DNA of 64,000 bases from Fluviicola sp. XM-24bin1 (lineage in GTDB: Bacteria > Bacteroidota > Bacteroidia > Flavobacteriales_D > Crocinitomicaceae). Made by a program: the position numbers and the translations under genes. Positions 16,564 through 25,547 of this stretch are shown in pieces. The notes beneath the pieces are model-generated. The model worked only from the letters and a program-made list of their open reading frames with translations. It was not told where the DNA came from and did not search any database. The DNA is taken from NCBI GenBank assembly GCA_003149635.1, contig QCWI01000005.1, forward strand, positions 186,001 to 250,000, written 5' to 3'. Position 1 is the stretch's first letter, and every line of letters begins with the position of its first letter.

Positions 16564-16592
16564 GGGCTGAGCAGCAATGTTCGGCCCTTTTT
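16564..16592 (+). terminator. Rho-independent terminator
   Basis: GGGCTGA (16564-16570) pairs with TCGGCCC (16581-16587), with one G-U pair, followed by TTTTT. It lies between the T9SS protein gene and the TonB receptor 9 nt before the receptor ATG and may attenuate rather than fully stop transcription. Confidence 0.7.
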
Positions 16593-16600
16593 ATCTCAAT

Positions 16601-19024
16601 ATGAAGCAGATTTTCGTATTTCTTTTTACGTGTCTGAGCTTTTACGGATGGGCTCAAGATGAAAACGTGGGAACACTGCAAGGTAAGGTAACAGATGCCG
16701 ACGGTGAGGTGCTAATTGGTGCAGCGATTGTGTACAAAGCCGATGTTACCATTGGAGCATTGACCGATTTAGACGGAAACTACACCATTGAACTTCCAGC
16801 AGGCGATGTACGCGTTGTGTGTCGTTATACCGGAATGGTCACAGACACCCTGGATCTTACCATAATCAAAGGAAATACGATTACGCGCGATATCGTGCTA
16901 AAGCCATTCATTGATCCAGATGTGAAACAATTGGATGACGTAACGGTACGCGTAGGAAAGTTCGACAAACCTTTCGAAGATCAAACGGTTTCCATGGAAA
17001 TTTTGAAACCAGAGCTTATTGAGAATAAGAACACACGAAGCATTGAAACGGCTTTGGATCAAACACCAGGATTGAACATCCTTGATGGTGAACCGCAAAT
17101 TCGCGGAGGAAGTGGATTTACCTTTGGGGTAGGATCGAAAGTTGCGGTTATCGTAGATGATATGCCGATGCTCTCTGGGGATGCCGGCAGACCTGAATGG
17201 GGATTCATCCCGGTAGAAAACATTCACCAAGTAGAGGTTACCAAAGGTGCGGCGTCGGTACTTTCAGGAAGTTCCGCTTTATCTGGATCGATTCATATCC
17301 GTACAGCTTATCCTGGTTTGAAGCCAAAGACGAAGGTAAATGTGTATACTGGATTGTATTCCAATCCAGGGGTAGAAGGTGGAACTTGGTGGACAGGCGT
17401 TCCATTGATCAGCGGGGCAAACTTTTTGCACACGCGTCGCGCCGGACAGTGGGATATCGTTTTGGGAGGAAATGTGAACTACGATCATGGCTATCTCGGC
17501 CCACCAGTTACCGATCCGGGAATTGTAGATACAGTTTCCAATTTCACCGAAAGTCAGATGTCCATGCAACGCATTCGCGGAAATTACAATATTCGTCGCC
17601 GTTCGAAAAAGTACAAAGGATTGAACTACGGAATTAACGGGAATGTAATGTACTCGGAATCCAACTTAACGTTTGCGTGGTTGAACGATTCTTCCGGATT
17701 GTATCAAGGATATCCCGGTGCCGTTTTCTTGCAAGAGCAGTTCATTTTCAACGTCGATCCCTTCGTTAACTTCTTCACGAAAGCTAGTGGGAAGCACAGT
17801 TTCCGTATGCGCATGTTGTACACGGATAACGAACTTACGGCCAATCAATCCAATCAATCAGAGGTCTATTACGGAGACTACATGTTCAAGAAGCGCTACG
17901 CGAGTTTGAATGATTTGGATTTCATTGGTGGAGTCACCAGTACATTCACTAATTCCTTCGCCAATTTGTACGCAGGAGGGGGGAGTCCGAACAATCAATT
18001 GCTCAACATTTCCTCGTACATGCAATTGGAGAAAAAGGTGCGTCAAACCTTGAACTTATCCATAGGGGGACGTCTGGAATATTTCCAATTGAACAATTCG
18101 ATCACCGCCTTGAAACCAATTTTCCGTGCAGGAGCGAGTATTAAGTTGTATCAGGAAACGTATTTGCGCGGATCGTACGGTCAGGGATACCGATTCCCGA
18201 CCATCACAGAGCGTTACATTCGAACGGGAGTAGGAAACTTTGGAGTCTTCCCGAATCCAGATTTGCAACCAGAAAGTAGCTGGAACGCTGAAGTGGGAAT
18301 CAAGCAAGGATTGAAGTTTGGTGAACTCTTAGGTTATTTGGACGTGGCAGCATTCTGGCAAGAGTACGACAATACCATAGAATACCTATTCGGCTTCTGG
18401 GGAGATGATCCAACCGATCCATCCAATGCCTACGGATTCCAGTTCATGAACACGGGGGAATCACGCGTACTCGGAATTGACTTGTCCTTCTCGGGTAAAG
18501 CAAAATTGGGCAAGAATGCCGAATTGACCTTCATTACCGGATACAATTACATTCTGCCGAGAACGCTAACGCCAGACGAGGTGTACGCAACAGATATTCT
18601 AGGACGTGAATACAGTTTCAATGCAACGTCATTGGATTCTACAGACGGAATATTGAAATACCGCTTCCTTCATAATGTGAAAATGGATGCTGAGGTAGTT
18701 ATTAAGAAGAAATTGGCGATTGGAGCCAGTGCGCGTTACTTCAGTAAAATCTTGAATTTGGATGGGGTAATTGAAGAATTTGAAACAAGTACCACGCCAC
18801 CCTTTATTCAGAACATCCGATTCATGGATTACTTCAATAACAACCGAAACGGAAACTGGATCTTCGATGCGCGCATCTCCTATCAAATCAGTGAGGTACA
18901 GAAAATTGCGGTGATCAGTTCCAACATCATGAACCGGGTATATTCGCTACGTCCATTGAAGATTGAAGCCCCAAGAACGATCATGCTTCAATACACTTAT
19001 AAGCTGGATAGGAACAAGAAATAG
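16601..19024 (+). CDS. TonB-dependent receptor with CarboxypepD-like N-terminal domain
   Basis: An 807-residue outer-membrane receptor. A signal peptide (1-19, ending YGWAQ) is followed by a carboxypeptidase-regulatory-like domain (about 25-110), a plug domain (about 120-225, with PQIRGGSGFTFG and VTKGAASVLSGSSALSG) and a C-terminal beta-barrel ending in an aromatic-rich strand. Such receptors import large or scarce ligands using TonB energy. The ATG at 16601 is chosen because the signal peptide starts there; an upstream ATG at 16577 would sit inside the terminator. The ligand is unknown. The neighbouring T9SS and CotH proteins suggest a surface-capture cluster. Confidence 0.88.
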   Translation: MKQIFVFLFTCLSFYGWAQDENVGTLQGKVTDADGEVLIGAAIVYKADVTIGALTDLDGNYTIELPAGDVRVVCRYTGMVTDTLDLTIIKGNTITRDIVLKPFIDPDVKQLDDVTVRVGKFDKPFEDQTVSMEILKPELIENKNTRSIETALDQTPGLNILDGEPQIRGGSGFTFGVGSKVAVIVDDMPMLSGDAGRPEWGFIPVENIHQVEVTKGAASVLSGSSALSGSIHIRTAYPGLKPKTKVNVYTGLYSNPGVEGGTWWTGVPLISGANFLHTRRAGQWDIVLGGNVNYDHGYLGPPVTDPGIVDTVSNFTESQMSMQRIRGNYNIRRRSKKYKGLNYGINGNVMYSESNLTFAWLNDSSGLYQGYPGAVFLQEQFIFNVDPFVNFFTKASGKHSFRMRMLYTDNELTANQSNQSEVYYGDYMFKKRYASLNDLDFIGGVTSTFTNSFANLYAGGGSPNNQLLNISSYMQLEKKVRQTLNLSIGGRLEYFQLNNSITALKPIFRAGASIKLYQETYLRGSYGQGYRFPTITERYIRTGVGNFGVFPNPDLQPESSWNAEVGIKQGLKFGELLGYLDVAAFWQEYDNTIEYLFGFWGDDPTDPSNAYGFQFMNTGESRVLGIDLSFSGKAKLGKNAELTFITGYNYILPRTLTPDEVYATDILGREYSFNATSLDSTDGILKYRFLHNVKMDAEVVIKKKLAIGASARYFSKILNLDGVIEEFETSTTPPFIQNIRFMDYFNNNRNGNWIFDARISYQISEVQKIAVISSNIMNRVYSLRPLKIEAPRTIMLQYTYKLDRNKK

Positions 19025-19093
19025 ATCCATGGTCGCGTAATTGTACTTCATACACTTAGATTCAAAAGTCGTATTTTAGTGCTTGATCGAACT

Positions 19094-21166
19094 ATGAAAA
19101 AAGCGAAGAATCTTCTATCGACTAGTATTCTCTGTATATGTACGTATCTTGTTTTCGCGCAGGCGGGAGGTGAGGATTGTGCAACAGCGACCGTCATCAG
19201 CAGTCTTCCTTTTTCAGGTCAAGGTTCAACATTAGGGGCCAATGATGATTACTTTGAAAGCTGTCCCGATGTTGGAAATCAAGGGGGCGCTCCCGATCAC
19301 GTGTATCGATACGATAATGGCAATGCACCTTTAATCATCGATGTCAGTCTTTGCGAAGCCGTGACCAATTACGACTCCCAATTGTACGTCTACGAAGGCA
19401 CTTGCGGCGGAAACTTGATCGGATGTCAGGAAGATGGATGTCAATCACCCGCATATACAGCGCAATACAATTCGAGCATTACAGCCATTCCTTTGCAGCC
19501 CAATACTTCATATTACTTCGTGATTGATGGTTATGACGTTGGATCATTAGGGAATTATCAGATTGACATTACCGTGAACGATATCGCGGCACCGGATTCG
19601 AGTGAGATTCCACTCGTGTACATCAATTCAACGGTATATCCGATTCCAGACGAGCCTAAAGTTTTCGGGTCGATGCAGATCATTGATAACGGGCCGGGGA
19701 ATATGAATCACGCCACTGATCCACCCTTCGGATACAGTGGTTTTATTGGAATTGAGCAACGCGGAAGCTCTTCAACCATGTTCCCGAAGAAAGGGTACGG
19801 CTTGGAAACCAGAGACGAATTTGGATTGAATAGAAATGTCTCCCTCTTCGGGATGCCCACTGAAAACGATTGGGTACTGCATGGGCCTTACAGCGATAAA
19901 ACATTGATGCGCAACGAACTCTCATATTACCTAGGGCGACAGCTGACAGAATATGCGCCAAGAACCCAATTGTGCGAGTTGATCATAAACGGCATCTACC
20001 AGGGCGTCTATCTTTTTACAGAGAAAATTAAGCGAGACGACGATCGCGTGGATATCGATCGTATGCTCCAAACAGATATTATCGGGGATGAACTTACCGG
20101 AGGGTACATCATTAAAATTGATAAGGGTTCAGGTGGAAACAATGGCTTCTGGACATCTCAATATCAGTCTGTATCGACGCAACCAGAACCTATTAATTTT
20201 TACTACCATTATCCAAAGCCTGATTCGATCGTACCAGCCCAGCAAACCTACATTGCGGCTTACGTCGATGCTTTCGAAGATTGTTTGGCAGGCCCGAATT
20301 ATCAAGATCCATCGTTAGGCTATCAGGCATTGGCGGATATCAATTCATTCGTAGATTATTTCCTGCTCACGGAGCTGGTCAAAAACGTAGATGGATATCG
20401 AATCAGTACGTTTTTAACCAAGAATAAAGACAGCAATTACGGCAAACTGCGCATGGGCCCTTTTTGGGATTATAATCTGGCCTTTGGAAATGCAGACTAT
20501 TGCCAAGGCGGTAGCTTTACGGGCTGGGCTTATAGAATCCATGATATTTGTCCGGGAGGGCAGTGGCATGTCCCTTTTTGGTGGGAACGCTTGATGAGTG
20601 ATCCTGAATTTACCAATCGTGCACGATGTCGTTGGGATGAATTGCGAGCAGGGCCGTATCATACTGATTCTATATTAGCACACATCGATTCCAATGTAGC
20701 TTTGATGGGAGAGGCAAAAGACCGTAATTTTGAACGCTGGGATATTCTGAACGACTACGTTTGGCCGAATAATACTGTTACTGGCTCCTACGATCAAGAA
20801 ATCGCTTACATGAAAAACTGGATCATCAATCGTATGGTTTGGCTGGATAATAACCTGCCTGGATCGAATGGAGATTGTTCATTCTTATCGTTGGAAGAAT
20901 CTGAATTGCCACCTGAAATAAACGTATTTCCAAATCCCACTGAAGGTGATTTCTACGTGGAGTTTACTTCTGCAACCGACAATTATTTGATTTCCTTTAC
21001 CGACATTAATGGAAGATTGCTGTGGCAAGAAAGTCGAAGTAATATCGGACTTCATGTCATTGAAAGCTCTCAAATTTCAACCCTTCAAAATCTCGAGTCT
21101 GGGATTTATTTTGTTACGTTAACTTCTGGAAGTCAGTCGGTTTCACAGAAGGTTGTTCGTAAGTAG
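19094..21166 (+). CDS. CotH-kinase family protein with T9SS sorting domain
   Basis: A 690-residue secreted protein. After a signal peptide (about 1-23) comes a beta-rich N-terminal domain (about 27-155), then a CotH protein-kinase-like domain (about 175-580) with RGSSSTMFPKKGYGLE, DKTLMRNELSYYLG and IKRDDDRVDIDRM. A C-terminal type A T9SS sorting domain closes it (VFPNPTEGDF to SQKVVRK). CotH homologues in Bacillus phosphorylate spore-coat proteins; here the likely site is the cell surface. The ATG at 19094 gives a good signal peptide. The ORF lies between a TonB receptor gene and the cobalamin riboswitch. Confidence 0.85.
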   Translation: MKKAKNLLSTSILCICTYLVFAQAGGEDCATATVISSLPFSGQGSTLGANDDYFESCPDVGNQGGAPDHVYRYDNGNAPLIIDVSLCEAVTNYDSQLYVYEGTCGGNLIGCQEDGCQSPAYTAQYNSSITAIPLQPNTSYYFVIDGYDVGSLGNYQIDITVNDIAAPDSSEIPLVYINSTVYPIPDEPKVFGSMQIIDNGPGNMNHATDPPFGYSGFIGIEQRGSSSTMFPKKGYGLETRDEFGLNRNVSLFGMPTENDWVLHGPYSDKTLMRNELSYYLGRQLTEYAPRTQLCELIINGIYQGVYLFTEKIKRDDDRVDIDRMLQTDIIGDELTGGYIIKIDKGSGGNNGFWTSQYQSVSTQPEPINFYYHYPKPDSIVPAQQTYIAAYVDAFEDCLAGPNYQDPSLGYQALADINSFVDYFLLTELVKNVDGYRISTFLTKNKDSNYGKLRMGPFWDYNLAFGNADYCQGGSFTGWAYRIHDICPGGQWHVPFWWERLMSDPEFTNRARCRWDELRAGPYHTDSILAHIDSNVALMGEAKDRNFERWDILNDYVWPNNTVTGSYDQEIAYMKNWIINRMVWLDNNLPGSNGDCSFLSLEESELPPEINVFPNPTEGDFYVEFTSATDNYLISFTDINGRLLWQESRSNIGLHVIESSQISTLQNLESGIYFVTLTSGSQSVSQKVVRK

Positions 21167-21178
21167 ATAAAATTCGAA

Positions 21179-21209
21179 TTGCCCGACCATTCTTAATGTT
21201 GTATATTTG
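21179..21209 (+). promoter_or_regulatory. Promoter for the cobalamin operon
   Basis: TTG (21179-21181), a 20-nt spacer and TATATTTG (21202-21209) match the Bacteroidota consensus. The expected start site falls near 21216, close to the start of the riboswitch. Confidence 0.65.
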
Positions 21210-21212
21210 CCC

Positions 21213-21387
21213 TGACTTTGGTTCTACAATTTGGTTGGGATTAAAAAGGAATCCGGTGTAAATCCGGAACTGTATCTGCAGCTGTGAGTTCTAAAAGTCG
21301 GTTTCAAGAATGTCACTGTGAATGCTCCCCGCGTTCATGGGAAGGCGAAACCGATACGGTACGAGTCAGAATACTTGCCTTGGTCAT
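21213..21387 (+). promoter_or_regulatory. Cobalamin riboswitch
   Basis: Conserved elements of the B12 aptamer are visible: AATCCGGTGTAAATCCGG (about 21250-21267) followed by AACTGTATCTGCAGCTGTGA (about 21268-21287), then GGGAAGGCGAAACC (about 21339-21352) and GAGTCAGAATACTTGCCTTGG near the 3' end. End points are estimated because pairing was not computed. It precedes the T9SS protein, TonB receptor and lipoprotein genes and would lower their expression when adenosylcobalamin is plentiful. Confidence 0.85.
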
Positions 21388-21497
21388 TTAATGAAGACTT
21401 CAGATTAAAGTCGGATTTATGATGATTGCTGCGTACGGGCAACACCATATCTCTTATTTACCTGATTCTTCAACGTTGAACACATCAAATTGACACG

Positions 21498-22484
21498 ATG
21501 AAGAAAATTTACTTATCAATGATCGCCCTTGCAGTGGGTGGAACAGTAGCTGCACAATCTACTTTTGATTTTGAATCGCATAGTTTGGCGAGCGAATCGT
21601 ATGACAATGGTGGCCCTGTGCAGGGAGGAGCCGATTTTATCCTTACGGACAACGAATCCATTCGTTTAGATAACACCTACGATACCACGTATGGAAGTTG
21701 GACAGGTTTTTCGATTTCGAACGTTACCGACAACACAACGATGGACTATACGAATCAATATTCGACGGCGTCTGGAACCGGAGCAGGAGGCTCTGCGAAC
21801 TTTGGAGTGTATCACTCAAGCGGATCTCTGTCTGCTGAGAGTGCAAATACGCAAATTACCGAGTTCAAAATTACGAATACAGCCTATGCTAAATTGGCAA
21901 TGGAAAACGGTTATTTCGTAGCAAAACAATTCGGTTCTCCTTATAACTCTAACGGTCAGCTGGACGGAACCAACGGAGAAGACTGGTTCAAAGTTTGGAT
22001 CTATGCATCATCTGATCAAGGAGATTTAGATTCGATGGAATTTTACCTAGCTGATTACCGTTTTGCGGACAGTACACAAGATTACATCATAGATACATGG
22101 GAAACAATTGATTTGACTCAGGAATTCAGCTTTCCAGTAAGTTCATTGAGTTTTTCTTTAGAGTCTACCGATAACGATCCAATGTTTGGGATGAATACGC
22201 CAGCATATTTTGCAATCGACGACATCAAAACGATGGGATCCGTTGGATTGGCGACTAACGAGTCATTGGATATCGAAGTATATCCGAATCCAGCGACTGA
22301 TTTTGTAAAAGTAAATGCTCCAGAAGGGAAGATCACACTAGTGGATCTGCAAGGAAACATCCTTCTGCAACAAGAGCATAAAGGACAATCTTCTATTGAC
22401 GTTTCAAATTTAGTAACGGGTGTTTATGTAATCCGTTGGAGCAATGCATCTGATTCTTATACGAATCGGATTCTTGTACAATAA
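21498..22484 (+). CDS. DUF4465-like secreted protein with T9SS sorting domain (B12 locus)
   Basis: A 328-residue protein with a signal peptide (1-19, ending GGTVAAQ). The body (STFDFESHSL, then WTGFSISNVTDNTT) matches DUF4465-type proteins often found in cobalamin-riboswitch operons. The last 70 residues (VYPNPATDFVKV to YTNRILVQ) are a T9SS sorting domain, so it is probably displayed at the cell surface. Gut Bacteroides have riboswitch-controlled surface B12 binders such as BtuH; a similar binding role here is inference. Its stop overlaps the next start by 1 nt. Confidence 0.75.
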   Translation: MKKIYLSMIALAVGGTVAAQSTFDFESHSLASESYDNGGPVQGGADFILTDNESIRLDNTYDTTYGSWTGFSISNVTDNTTMDYTNQYSTASGTGAGGSANFGVYHSSGSLSAESANTQITEFKITNTAYAKLAMENGYFVAKQFGSPYNSNGQLDGTNGEDWFKVWIYASSDQGDLDSMEFYLADYRFADSTQDYIIDTWETIDLTQEFSFPVSSLSFSLESTDNDPMFGMNTPAYFAIDDIKTMGSVGLATNESLDIEVYPNPATDFVKVNAPEGKITLVDLQGNILLQQEHKGQSSIDVSNLVTGVYVIRWSNASDSYTNRILVQ

Positions 22485-24511
22485 TGAAATGTAGTTGGTT
22501 AAAAAATTGTTTGTTCGCCGGGGGATTGGTTCTCCCGGCTTTCGCCTTTGCGCAAGTAAAGGTAGACACGAATCTCGTGCCAGTCAAAAGCCTTGAAGCG
22601 GTGCGAATTCCGGCAGAGTTAGTCATTTATCATTTGCCACTTTTCGATAAACTCTCGAAAGAAGATATCGAACAGCTCAATACGGATGACGTAGCAGGTC
22701 TTGTTGCCAAAACACCGGGGGCTACCATTCGTTCTTATGGTGGATTGGGTGGATTGAAAACGGTTTCCATGCGAGGGCTAGGGGGGCAGCATACTGCGGT
22801 TCTCATTGATAATTTCTTGGTAACGAATGCTCAAGCAGGCCAGATGAATTTGGGGCAATTGCAATCAGAAGGTTTGATTTCCGTAAAGTCGGGTGTTCTT
22901 CAAAATTCAATGAATCTTGCTCCGATTTCATCCAGTTTTTCCAGTAACTATCTTCAGTTTCGAACGTTCATGGACATTCGATCTCCGGAGAGAACGCGCG
23001 TGAATACCTCCATTCGATATGGTTCTTTCATGCGAAGAGAAGTGTACGCGCAAGGAAGCCGAGGGAAAGGCCACTGGAATTTCGGTGCTTTTGGAAAGTA
23101 TCGCGATGCCAATGGTGCTTACCCATATCAATTTGTAAACGGATCAACACCGGATAGCGGAGTTCGGGGTAATAACGATTATCAAGACATGCACTTTGGT
23201 GCTTCCATGAGTCGTCAGATGGGGCACTTGGGTAAACTTCGATTGATTTATAGATCGTCAAGAATTGATCAGGGATTACCGGGTGCGGTAATCTTTTACA
23301 ATGAATCAGCGGACGAACGTATGAATACCCAGGATCATAGAATTATGCTGGATTATGCAAAGCACGATTATGATCAAAACAGTTATCGTCTTTACTTGAA
23401 TGGGGGAATGAATGATTTGGAATATTTCGATCCAACCCATTTGAATGCTGAAGGGTTTGTTCACGATGCCTTCCGAAATTATTCCATCACTGGAGGATAC
23501 GTACACAGCAAGAAAATTCCGGAGAAAGAAGAGGATTATTACAGCGAAAGCCGCCTGTTTTATGTAAAATGGGGAGCAGAGCAGAGGATTGAAATGCTGG
23601 AAAGTAATAGAACCACTTTGGGACGGCCGTTTCGCGCTTCCACCTATGGTTTGGTAGCCGGAAAGTATGAGAAATACAAACTTATGGTCGAAGCAACCGC
23701 CGGAGCCCAGCTCGTTGTTGACGAAAATAATCTAGGTCGAAATACACATATTCAGTTTACGCCAAATGCGCGAACGACGTATGAATTCAAATCCAGAGGT
23801 AAAAGAAAGGCGGAGCTGATTTACAAGCGAAATTTCCGTTTGCCTTCGTTCAATGAATTGTATTTTGGAGAAGTTGGAAACAGCGACTTACAACCTGAAA
23901 TCGCGCATCAATTAGATTTGGGCTATCACTGGAAAATCTTTGAAAGATACATAGGCTGGCATTGGGAGTTAAAAGGACAGGGATTCTACAATCACGTAAA
24001 GAATAAAATTGTCGCAATTCCAACGAAGAACCTCTTCATTTGGTCAATGCAGAACGTTGATAGAGCTATGATTTACGGAGGTTTGGTGGAATCCGGAGCG
24101 ATTCGACGATTTAACGATAACCACCGCATCGAATTTATGGCCAACTATACGTGGCAACGCGTCATCGACATTACTCCGGATGCCATCACATACGGGCATC
24201 AGGTGGCATATGCTCCCGAGCACACAGCCAACGCCGATGTCATGTACTTTTACAAAGGCTTCAGTTTCCGAGCTTCAAACAACTTTGTTTCGTCGCGATA
24301 CGCGTTGAATCAGAATGTTCCAGCGAATTATTTGGATCCATTTTGGACGATGGATGTGGCCATCGGGTACAAGCATACATTAAAAAGAAGACACAAAATT
24401 GGCGTACAGTTAAATGTGCGTAACTTAACAAACGCATCCTACGCATTTATCCGATCCTACGTAATGCCAGGACGTCACTACTTATTGACTTTGAATTATG
24501 AAATATTTTAG
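22484..24511 (+). CDS. TonB-dependent receptor, likely cobalamin uptake (BtuB-like)
   Basis: A 675-residue receptor with a signal peptide (about 1-23), a plug domain (about 55-170, with KTPGATIRSYGGLGGLKTVSMRG) and a barrel with characteristic NELYFGEVGNSDLQPE-type late strands. It has no CarboxypepD domain. The cobalamin riboswitch and the flanking B12-type surface proteins make BtuB function likely; the sequence alone shows only a TonB receptor. It overlaps the next gene by 14 nt and the previous by 1 nt. Confidence 0.82.
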   Translation: MKCSWLKNCLFAGGLVLPAFAFAQVKVDTNLVPVKSLEAVRIPAELVIYHLPLFDKLSKEDIEQLNTDDVAGLVAKTPGATIRSYGGLGGLKTVSMRGLGGQHTAVLIDNFLVTNAQAGQMNLGQLQSEGLISVKSGVLQNSMNLAPISSSFSSNYLQFRTFMDIRSPERTRVNTSIRYGSFMRREVYAQGSRGKGHWNFGAFGKYRDANGAYPYQFVNGSTPDSGVRGNNDYQDMHFGASMSRQMGHLGKLRLIYRSSRIDQGLPGAVIFYNESADERMNTQDHRIMLDYAKHDYDQNSYRLYLNGGMNDLEYFDPTHLNAEGFVHDAFRNYSITGGYVHSKKIPEKEEDYYSESRLFYVKWGAEQRIEMLESNRTTLGRPFRASTYGLVAGKYEKYKLMVEATAGAQLVVDENNLGRNTHIQFTPNARTTYEFKSRGKRKAELIYKRNFRLPSFNELYFGEVGNSDLQPEIAHQLDLGYHWKIFERYIGWHWELKGQGFYNHVKNKIVAIPTKNLFIWSMQNVDRAMIYGGLVESGAIRRFNDNHRIEFMANYTWQRVIDITPDAITYGHQVAYAPEHTANADVMYFYKGFSFRASNNFVSSRYALNQNVPANYLDPFWTMDVAIGYKHTLKRRHKIGVQLNVRNLTNASYAFIRSYVMPGRHYLLTLNYEIF

Positions 24512-25547
24512 TCTCATTATCGCAGCAACGCTTGTTTTAGCGTCGTGTAAAGAAGATCCGCAAGAACCTTTTGTGCCTAACGTGCAGAATCTAGAAGGTG
24601 GGATGCTCGTTCTTTGCGAAGGACTGTTTCAACATAACAATGCTGCAATTAACTGGGTTTCGTTACCAAGTGGCAGTAGCGATCCCAACTTTTTTGAAAC
24701 GAAAACGGGTCGTGCTTTGGGCGATACTGGAAACGATATGATGCGCTATGGAGATAAGATTTACGTCGTTGTGAATGTTTCTTCTACTATTGAAATAATG
24801 AGTGCGATAGATTTCACACCCATTCTGCAAATTGAAATGACAGACAATGGTCAACCAAAGCAGCCGAGATCGTTGGCTTCTGCAAATGGGAAAGTGTACA
24901 TTACTTGCTACGATGGATTCGTGGACGTATTGGATACTGCGACCTTGAGTATCGATCAGCGAATTGCTGTAGGAGAGAATCCGGAAGGATTGGCCGTGAG
25001 TAATAACAAGCTGTATGTCGCGAATTCAGGAGGCTTGAATTTTCCCGATGTGGATTCGACGGTATCTGTGATTGATTTGAACACGCTCAACGAATTGCAG
25101 AAAATTACGGTTGGATTGAATCCAGGGGGTGTGATGGTAAACGACGCCGGAGATGTATTCGTGATTTCCCGAGGAGATTATGGCGCGAATCCTTCGCGTT
25201 TGCGCAAGATTGATCCAACTACGGATCAAGTGATAAATGCCAGTTACACATTCGATATCAGCGCAATGACTTCCATGTCCGCCACGGATATGCTGGTGTA
25301 TGATGCAGCTGGAGTCTATCAATTTAACTTTCAAACGGACGCTATCACGACTACGATTCCAATGAATATGGCAACGATTCAGACGCTGTACGGCTTGGCT
25401 TACCATCCAACGGAAAATGCATTGTACGTAATGGATGCGATGGGCTATACTAATGAAGGTGTAATTCGCAAATACGATATAAACGGAAATTACCTAACGG
25501 GATATCCTGCCGGTTTGAATCCATCGAAGATTCTCTTTTTTGATTAA
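24498..25547 (+). CDS. YncE-like beta-propeller lipoprotein (BtuG-like)
   Basis: A 349-residue protein with a lipobox (LASC, Cys17). The body has repeated YncE/surface-layer propeller blades (GKVYITCYDGFVDVLDT, NKLYVANSGG, VSVIDLNTLNELQKITVG). In Bacteroides the related BtuG is a surface lipoprotein that binds B12 very tightly and passes it to BtuB. Here the operon order is T9SS protein, BtuB-like, BtuG-like. Identity as BtuG is supported by fold and context, not by direct comparison. It overlaps the receptor gene by 14 nt. Confidence 0.8.
   Translation: MKYFSLIIAATLVLASCKEDPQEPFVPNVQNLEGGMLVLCEGLFQHNNAAINWVSLPSGSSDPNFFETKTGRALGDTGNDMMRYGDKIYVVVNVSSTIEIMSAIDFTPILQIEMTDNGQPKQPRSLASANGKVYITCYDGFVDVLDTATLSIDQRIAVGENPEGLAVSNNKLYVANSGGLNFPDVDSTVSVIDLNTLNELQKITVGLNPGGVMVNDAGDVFVISRGDYGANPSRLRKIDPTTDQVINASYTFDISAMTSMSATDMLVYDAAGVYQFNFQTDAITTTIPMNMATIQTLYGLAYHPTENALYVMDAMGYTNEGVIRKYDINGNYLTGYPAGLNPSKILFFD

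Follow-up and report, generated by a model that had tools for sequence, protein, structure and literature searches.

Models of vitamin B12 (cobalamin) capture rest on the lipoproteins of gut Bacteroides. Here we describe an operon of Fluviicola sp. XM-24bin1 that lies at 21179-25547 on the forward strand of the window, the stretch of 64,000 nucleotides (nt) that was analysed (contig QCWI01000005.1, positions 186,001-250,000, forward strand). It is composed, in order, of a promoter, a cobalamin riboswitch and genes for a DUF4465 protein (gene 1), a BtuB-like protein (gene 2) and a BtuG-like protein (gene 3). Together with its relatives in other genomes, the operon suggests that the same capture chemistry operates in other Bacteroidota via the type IX secretion system (T9SS), here probably with a capture protein of the BtuJ type. 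The first-pass annotation of this DNA had proposed a promoter, a riboswitch and three overlapping genes, and the coordinates, the Rfam search and the domain matches bear out all of these (Table 1).

Table 1. Features of the operon, in window coordinates (aa, amino acids)
Feature	Position	Strand	Description
Bacteroidota-type promoter	21179..21209	+	TTG at 21179-21181, 20-nt spacer, TATATTTG at 21202-21209; overlaps the riboswitch start
Cobalamin riboswitch aptamer, RF00174	21202..21396	+	91.9 bits (gathering threshold 31.5), E 1.7e-21, full model 1-189
Possible expression platform	21392..21472	+	Long-range helix GAAGACTTCAG...CTGATTCTTC versus local hairpin GACTT...AAGTC
Gene 1	21498..22484	+	328 aa; DUF4465 (BtuJ-like), Sec signal, T9SS type A sorting domain; probable B12 capture
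Gene 2	22484..24511	+	675 aa; BtuB-like TonB-dependent receptor; 1-nt overlap with gene 1
Gene 3	24498..25547	+	349 aa; BtuG-like beta-propeller lipoprotein; 14-nt overlap with gene 2

The DUF4465 protein and its B12 pocket

Gene 1 matches the DUF4465 model PF14717 over residues 64-243 at 140.8 bits (cut-off 25). Searched alone against the PDB it matches DUF4465 crystal structures, and so does a profile of 38 T9SS-tailed proteins, which finds 9hmu (E 8.8e-40), 9fct (3e-38), 9qpm (4.4e-38) and 9i2l (6.7e-17) and among whose DUF4465 structures rank 4jqr and 4e9k, each deposited as a hypothetical protein. Three of these structures (9hmu, 9fct and 9i2l) are named and B12-bound, 9fct being BtuJ1 and 9i2l BtuJ2 (PMC13398666). 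The corrin contacts reported for BtuJ1 are Tyr146, Asn241, Thr242 and Tyr245 (the source prints two Asn numbers swapped, and the NT order of the motif assigns 241 to BtuJ1). Tyr130, Asn233, Thr234 and Tyr237 of the window protein align with these residues and are conserved in 34, 35, 38 and 34 of the 38 T9SS-tailed proteins, respectively; the NTPAY motif of the HI loop with its conserved Tyr and the Tyr of the DE loop are both present in gene 1. Because BtuJ structures match and the BtuJ1 contact residues align and are conserved, gene 1 is, judged by its sequence, kin of BtuJ. BtuJ1 and BtuJ2 of Bacteroides thetaiotaomicron (BT_1491 and BT_1957; DUF4465 / IPR027828) have the same domain and the same main corrin-contact residues, and their operons are likewise led by a riboswitch and contain btuB and btuG; they differ in being predicted lipoproteins on vesicles, whereas the window protein has a T9SS tail in place of a lipobox.

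The first-pass annotation had compared the capture protein with the BtuG and BtuH lipoproteins. A parallel in a probable surface B12-capture role holds, including that with BtuH2 (PDB 7biz), but an identity with BtuH or BtuG does not, gene 1 being the counterpart of BtuJ. Neither 7biz nor 8blw_B appeared in the PDB searches with gene 1 (gene alone at E<=1; profile at E<=0.01), which returned DUF4465 chains, two hypothetical proteins and sorting-tail chains; with no BtuH chain among the matches, we rejected BtuH as the identity of gene 1. BtuH-type and BtuH-like T9SS-tailed genes do occur in related operons, though not in the window's.

The C-terminus of gene 1 matches the sorting-tail model PF18962 (Por_Secre_tail) over residues 261-327 at 48.2 bits (cut-off 27) and the T9SS type A sorting domain TIGR04183 at 44.1 bits (cut-off 23), so that both domains predicted for this protein, DUF4465 and sorting tail, are present. 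Its signal region, MKKIYLSMIALAVGGTVAAQS, has no cysteine and hence does not qualify as a lipoprotein signal. Nor is a lipoprotein signal family-wide, since other targeting classes in the DUF4465 family are described in PMC12751083. The host genome (3.63 Mb, 99.86% complete) has a single DUF4465 gene and encodes both T9SS core parts searched for, SprA (2338.6 bits) and PorU (1265.8 bits).

The BtuB-like receptor and the BtuG-like lipoprotein

The assignment of genes 2 and 3 to a BtuB-like TonB receptor and a BtuG-like beta-propeller lipoprotein agrees with the structure database. Gene 2 contains a TonB plug (PF07715) and barrel (PF00593) and has four PDB matches at E<=0.001, headed by BtuB1 (8blw_A, E 2.1e-59); two of the four bear the name BtuB, and the remaining pair belong to entries 8bmx and 8p97, whose partner chain matches gene 3. 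Gene 3 matches the propeller model PF16819 (DUF5074) at 66.2 bits, has 8ptf_A (E 3.1e-53), 8ptd_A and, third, 8blw_B (6.6e-53) at the head of its PDB matches, and begins with MKYFSLIIAATLVLASC-KEDPQEP, which includes the lipobox LASC. The BtuB1-BtuG1 complex of PDB 8blw, which we take to be from Bacteroides thetaiotaomicron, therefore supplies, from the solved structures, both the top match of gene 2 and the third match of gene 3. The gene 3 product is a BtuG-like lipoprotein, and a complex with the gene 2 product is predicted. BtuG1 has a C-terminal BtuH domain (PMC8941943), whereas the BtuG of the window is a propeller alone.

Promoter, riboswitch and leader

The consensus promoter of Bacteroidota is TTG, about 19 nt and TAnnTTTG, and across 13 aligned leaders the T, A, T, T and G of the second element are unchanged. 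A generic sigma-70 scan includes the promoter site; it finds 2 sites against a mean of 10.0 in shuffled sequences and thus adds nothing for the promoter. RF00174 is the sole Rfam match in the window at gathering thresholds and the single match to this model in the whole host genome, and the proposed riboswitch fold agrees with the aptamer over the full length of the model.

Downstream of the aptamer, folding of 21388-21475 gives a z score of -3.70, with none of 200 shuffles equally stable, whereas the longer leader stretch, to 21503, reaches only -1.99, with 10 of 200 shuffles as stable. Nine pairs are predicted for the platform helix, two of which are broken in 2 of 16 aligned sequences; no pair is changed on both sides among the 16, and covariation therefore gives the helix no support. 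The leaders of near relatives share, 3' of the aptamer and before the start codon, GAAGACTTCAG...AAAGTC and a later CTGATTTCTTC. GAAGACTTCAG (with at most 2 edits) occurs 3' of the riboswitch in 17 loci, the window's near relatives L023-L039 (related loci are given by L numbers), and in no other riboswitch-bearing locus scanned. The post-aptamer element is thus clade-bound, and we rejected an expression platform common to all loci. The riboswitch may act on transcription or on translation.

Conservation of the operon

Relatives were taken from a profile search of genome contigs, as the best 80 of at least 486 stretches that encode one, so that the sample leans to the window's own subfamily. 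By a profile built up from the tail of the window protein, 56 of the 80 loci have a DUF4465 protein with a T9SS tail, and PF18962 at E 0.001 confirms all 57 tail-profile picks, the window included (38/38 and 19/19). The order riboswitch, tailed DUF4465 gene, BtuB-like gene recurs in other genomes. Of the 56 T9SS-type loci, 50 had their genomes searched for RF00174 (all but L091, L093, L095, L097, L099 and L100). The element is present in 48 of these genomes, and 47 of the 50 operons are headed by a cobalamin riboswitch, which lies either 30-154 nt before the DUF4465 open reading frame (ORF; 37 loci) or 47-192 nt 5' of a btuB-like gene directly followed by the DUF4465 gene (10 loci). By profiles of our own, a BtuB-like gene is present in 50/56 T9SS-type loci (a count that may include other TonB receptors) and a BtuG-like gene in 35/56 (many loci being cut by contig ends). 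A simple lipobox pattern is found in 29 of 36 BtuG-like proteins, the window's included (L065 is probably a false match), and a T9SS tail in none of the 36. Of 395 Bacteroidota genomes drawn evenly, nine have PF14717 over its cut-off; ten proteins from these nine, judged by eye, comprise four with T9SS tails (the window's among them), five lipoprotein-like forms and one partial weak match left untyped.

With the sorting domain, the missing signal-region cysteine, the host's SprA and PorU and the 56 tailed loci, the proposal that the capture protein would reach the surface through T9SS, and not as a lipoprotein, is supported. The T9SS-delivery inference is right, yet for the DUF4465 family as a whole it is not new, because PMC12751083 (2025) already counts T9SS-tailed DUF4465 proteins: 229 of 824 have IPR026444, the T9SS sorting domain, and 88 of 824 have IPR013424, PEP-CTERM, and the family is proposed to be mainly extracellular. 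The window protein has the same domain architecture and belongs to that T9SS-tailed set, for which section 8 of that paper gives a count only; the present analysis adds a look at the operon, its riboswitch and the host machinery. According to PMC13398666 (2026), DUF4465 genes are often near TonB receptors and PF16819 propellers and often beside other 'DUF' families, not named there, with a likeness to accessory proteins of B12 scavenging; its main text contains none of the words T9SS, type IX, sorting, secretion, PEP-CTERM and exosortase. We found no paper that brings T9SS, BtuB and riboswitch together, in a search that lacked most subscription papers and all preprints. What we add to the printed record is the riboswitch linkage over 50 genomes, the host machinery test described below and the conserved operon.

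Three side observations concern individual loci. Two DUF4465 domains stand in tandem in ten proteins (L040, L044, L058, L065, L075, L080, L082, L084, L086 and L092), which suggests two B12 sites per protein. At L036:9938-10901 the DUF4465 gene is broken into two overlapping ORFs, by a frameshift or an assembly error. The record of L039 (CP034120.1), whose title Glaciecola amylolytica (Pseudomonadota) looks wrong for its sequence, has SprA, four cobalamin riboswitches and a DUF4465 operon of the T9SS type.

Tail types and host sorting machinery

The 24 of 80 loci that are not of the T9SS type comprise 20 from other phyla, two lipoproteins (L077 and L089) and two untyped loci (L071 and L079). 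The 20, as their records are titled, come from Planctomycetota, Verrucomicrobiota, Cyanobacteriota, Pseudomonadota, deltaproteobacterial lineages and Omnitrophota. By eye, 18 of them have a PEP-CTERM-like tail; one PEP-CTERM model matches 12 of the 20, and each other model matches fewer. We compared tail type with sorting machinery in 48 hand-picked genomes: 28 of the 56 T9SS-type, 18 PEP-type and two lipoprotein-type. SprA was found in 26/28 T9SS-type, 0/18 PEP-type and 2/2 lipoprotein-type genomes, and an exosortase above 150 bits in 0/28, 16/18 and 0/2, respectively. Tail type thus tracks the host's sorting machinery across the sampled lineages, a match that falls short of proving export.

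A tree of 88 DUF4465 domains, built by a quick method that leaves 40 of 85 inner branches open and read disregarding the row of L018 (wrong frame, 14 stops), needs five changes for the three tail types, and its T9SS and PEP-CTERM tails are clustered by lineage; the match of tail to machinery therefore partly reflects phylogeny. The lipoprotein DUF4465 proteins L077:9659-10642 and L089:5074-6054, which have a DUF5018-like N-terminal stretch, lie near T9SS-tailed forms on this tree; lipoprotein rows other than that of L018 are on long branches.

A companion family

In many relatives a further gene, encoding about 320 aa in most T9SS-type loci, lies between gene 1 and btuB or 3' of btuG (examples are L054:6948-7910, L024:4435-5391 and L061:4625-5404). 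Its profile exceeds 150 bits in 39 of the 80 loci, in 25 of them within 200 nt of the DUF4465 gene, in 12 about 2.2-3.6 kb away on the same strand and in two fused to it; since the loci were chosen for DUF4465, this count is silent on how frequent the companion is without it. A T9SS tail is present on 25 of 31 aligned companions. Tails aside, no Pfam model matches more than two of the 31 at E 0.1; the NCBIfam LIC_13355 family lipoprotein model weakly matches 21 of them (best E 4.3e-7), so that the companion does have a remote named relative. The companion family as such was not found in print, in a search with the same coverage of the literature.

The companion is possibly a distant BtuH-like capture protein. 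With tails, its profile weakly matches the BtuH region of 8blw_B (E 0.0012), a match that the trimmed profile loses; on the ORF set, the trimmed profile finds two BtuH-type proteins (1.8e-6 and 2.4e-6), others more weakly or not at all. Compared profile to profile, the companion and six BtuH-type proteins match with a probability of 95.8 and E 7.9e-9, over 66 columns only. Eight weak members differ from the other companions. Among them, L095:6095-7489 has a clear BtuH domain (7biz_A, 3.1e-40) and, by our own profile, a T9SS tail, and the similar L093:8335-9753 has a tail at 21.6 bits (Pfam cut-off 27); each lies beside a T9SS-tailed DUF4465 gene. None of the curated models searched names the family clearly, and it is a candidate for B12 binding.

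Four single ORFs join DUF4465 with a companion or BtuH-type domain (L075:9104-13657, L087:2811-4628, L081:9470-12301 and L097:3-2000). The window operon has no companion. The host's single copy (L106:8885-9850, reverse strand) is T9SS-tailed and stands alone on another contig with no riboswitch beside it, and this argues against joint control in the species.

Interpretation and alternatives

With a probability that we put at roughly 0.85, the locus is a real and conserved B12-scavenging operon with a T9SS-sorted capture protein of the BtuJ type. Direct observations behind this are the parts and their order, the conservation of the pocket residues, the two T9SS core proteins of the host and the match of tail to machinery. 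At low cellular cobalamin, the riboswitch would permit transcription or translation. By homology, the BtuB-like receptor and the BtuG-like lipoprotein propeller would form an outer-membrane importer with a lid, as in Bacteroides. The DUF4465 protein would enter by its Sec signal, cross the outer membrane via T9SS and have its tail cut by the PorU sortase, and the mature protein would be attached to the surface or released. Its loop pocket would bind a cobamide and hand it to BtuG/BtuB, and the protein would in this way fill the job of the lipoprotein BtuJ by a different sorting route. If the capture chemistry runs via T9SS, T9SS loss should impair B12 scavenging.

Type A cargo of the T9SS is either anchored or released. 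The DUF4465 protein might then be a soluble, hemophore-like B12 carrier, released after export and not anchored, which we think unlikely while taking it seriously: the sequence holds nothing to tell release from anchoring, and a free binder would feed neighbours with BtuB/BtuG too, yet BtuJ in B. thetaiotaomicron works at a distance, on vesicles likened to siderophores (PMC12751083). That the sorting tail is non-functional and the protein periplasmic would accord with PMC13398666, in which more than 70% of DUF4465 proteins are predicted lipoproteins and the remainder are called periplasmic. This strikes us as improbable, given that the tail-profile proteins without exception match PF18962, that tail type follows the host machinery, and that PMC12751083, from the same group, counts such tails as extracellular targeting motifs. 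A DUF4465 protein that no longer binds B12 and has another ligand or a structural role is still more improbable: BtuK2 of B. thetaiotaomicron does lack cobalamin binding despite its likeness to the binder BtuK1 (PMC12751083), but here the pocket residues are conserved, a cobalamin riboswitch stands in front of the gene, and eight divergent DUF4465 members, one of them from Fluviicola taffensis, are reported to bind B12 (six were taken forward for good expression; PMC13398666).

Several observations weigh against the reading as a B12-scavenging operon with a T9SS-sorted BtuJ-type protein. Three of the 50 tested loci have no riboswitch in place (L042, where the contig starts inside the gene; L074, with none; L078, where it lies elsewhere in the locus), and that of L053 is weak (33.3 bits). 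SprA was not found in two of the 28 T9SS-type genomes (L043 and L054), and weak exosortase-like matches occur in 7/28 T9SS-type (<=47.2 bits) and 2/2 lipoprotein-type genomes (<=52.0 bits). On the NCBIfam TonB-B12 equivalog model gene 2 scores 71.8 bits, far below the cut-off of 599.7, and is therefore called BtuB-like and not that equivalog. The operon is without BtuFCD genes, and the two PF01497 proteins of the host both lie outside it, with BtuF and BtuC matches below cut-off: one adjoins a permease and an ATPase, the permease being best on BtuC at 179.5 bits (cut-off 334), and the other matches BtuF at 70.7 bits (cut-off 234). On these scores the route past the outer membrane is present as candidates only. 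Five B12-binding-domain proteins are over cut-off in the host genome.

Beyond this operon we venture, tentatively and at somewhat under even odds, a wider view. Many non-gut Bacteroidota would have a capture layer of two T9SS-sorted proteins, a DUF4465/BtuJ protein and the companion (possibly distantly BtuH-like); BtuG alone would be a lipoprotein, since its place is necessarily on BtuB. In Planctomycetota, Verrucomicrobiota, Cyanobacteriota and some Pseudomonadota, export of the DUF4465 protein, and partly of the companion, would go via exosortase. The capture domains would then be one conserved toolkit fitted to each lineage's surface-sorting machine.

Neighbouring genes

Residues 1-251 of gene 1 have no match in PLSDB and so give no sign of plasmid carriage. 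Upstream of the operon lie a TonB receptor with a carboxypeptidase-like domain (16577-19024) and a CotH-domain T9SS cargo (19079-21166), and nothing ties either to the B12 operon. A methyltransferase-like gene, which we do not count as part of the system, begins 9 nt downstream of gene 3 and may be cotranscribed with it.

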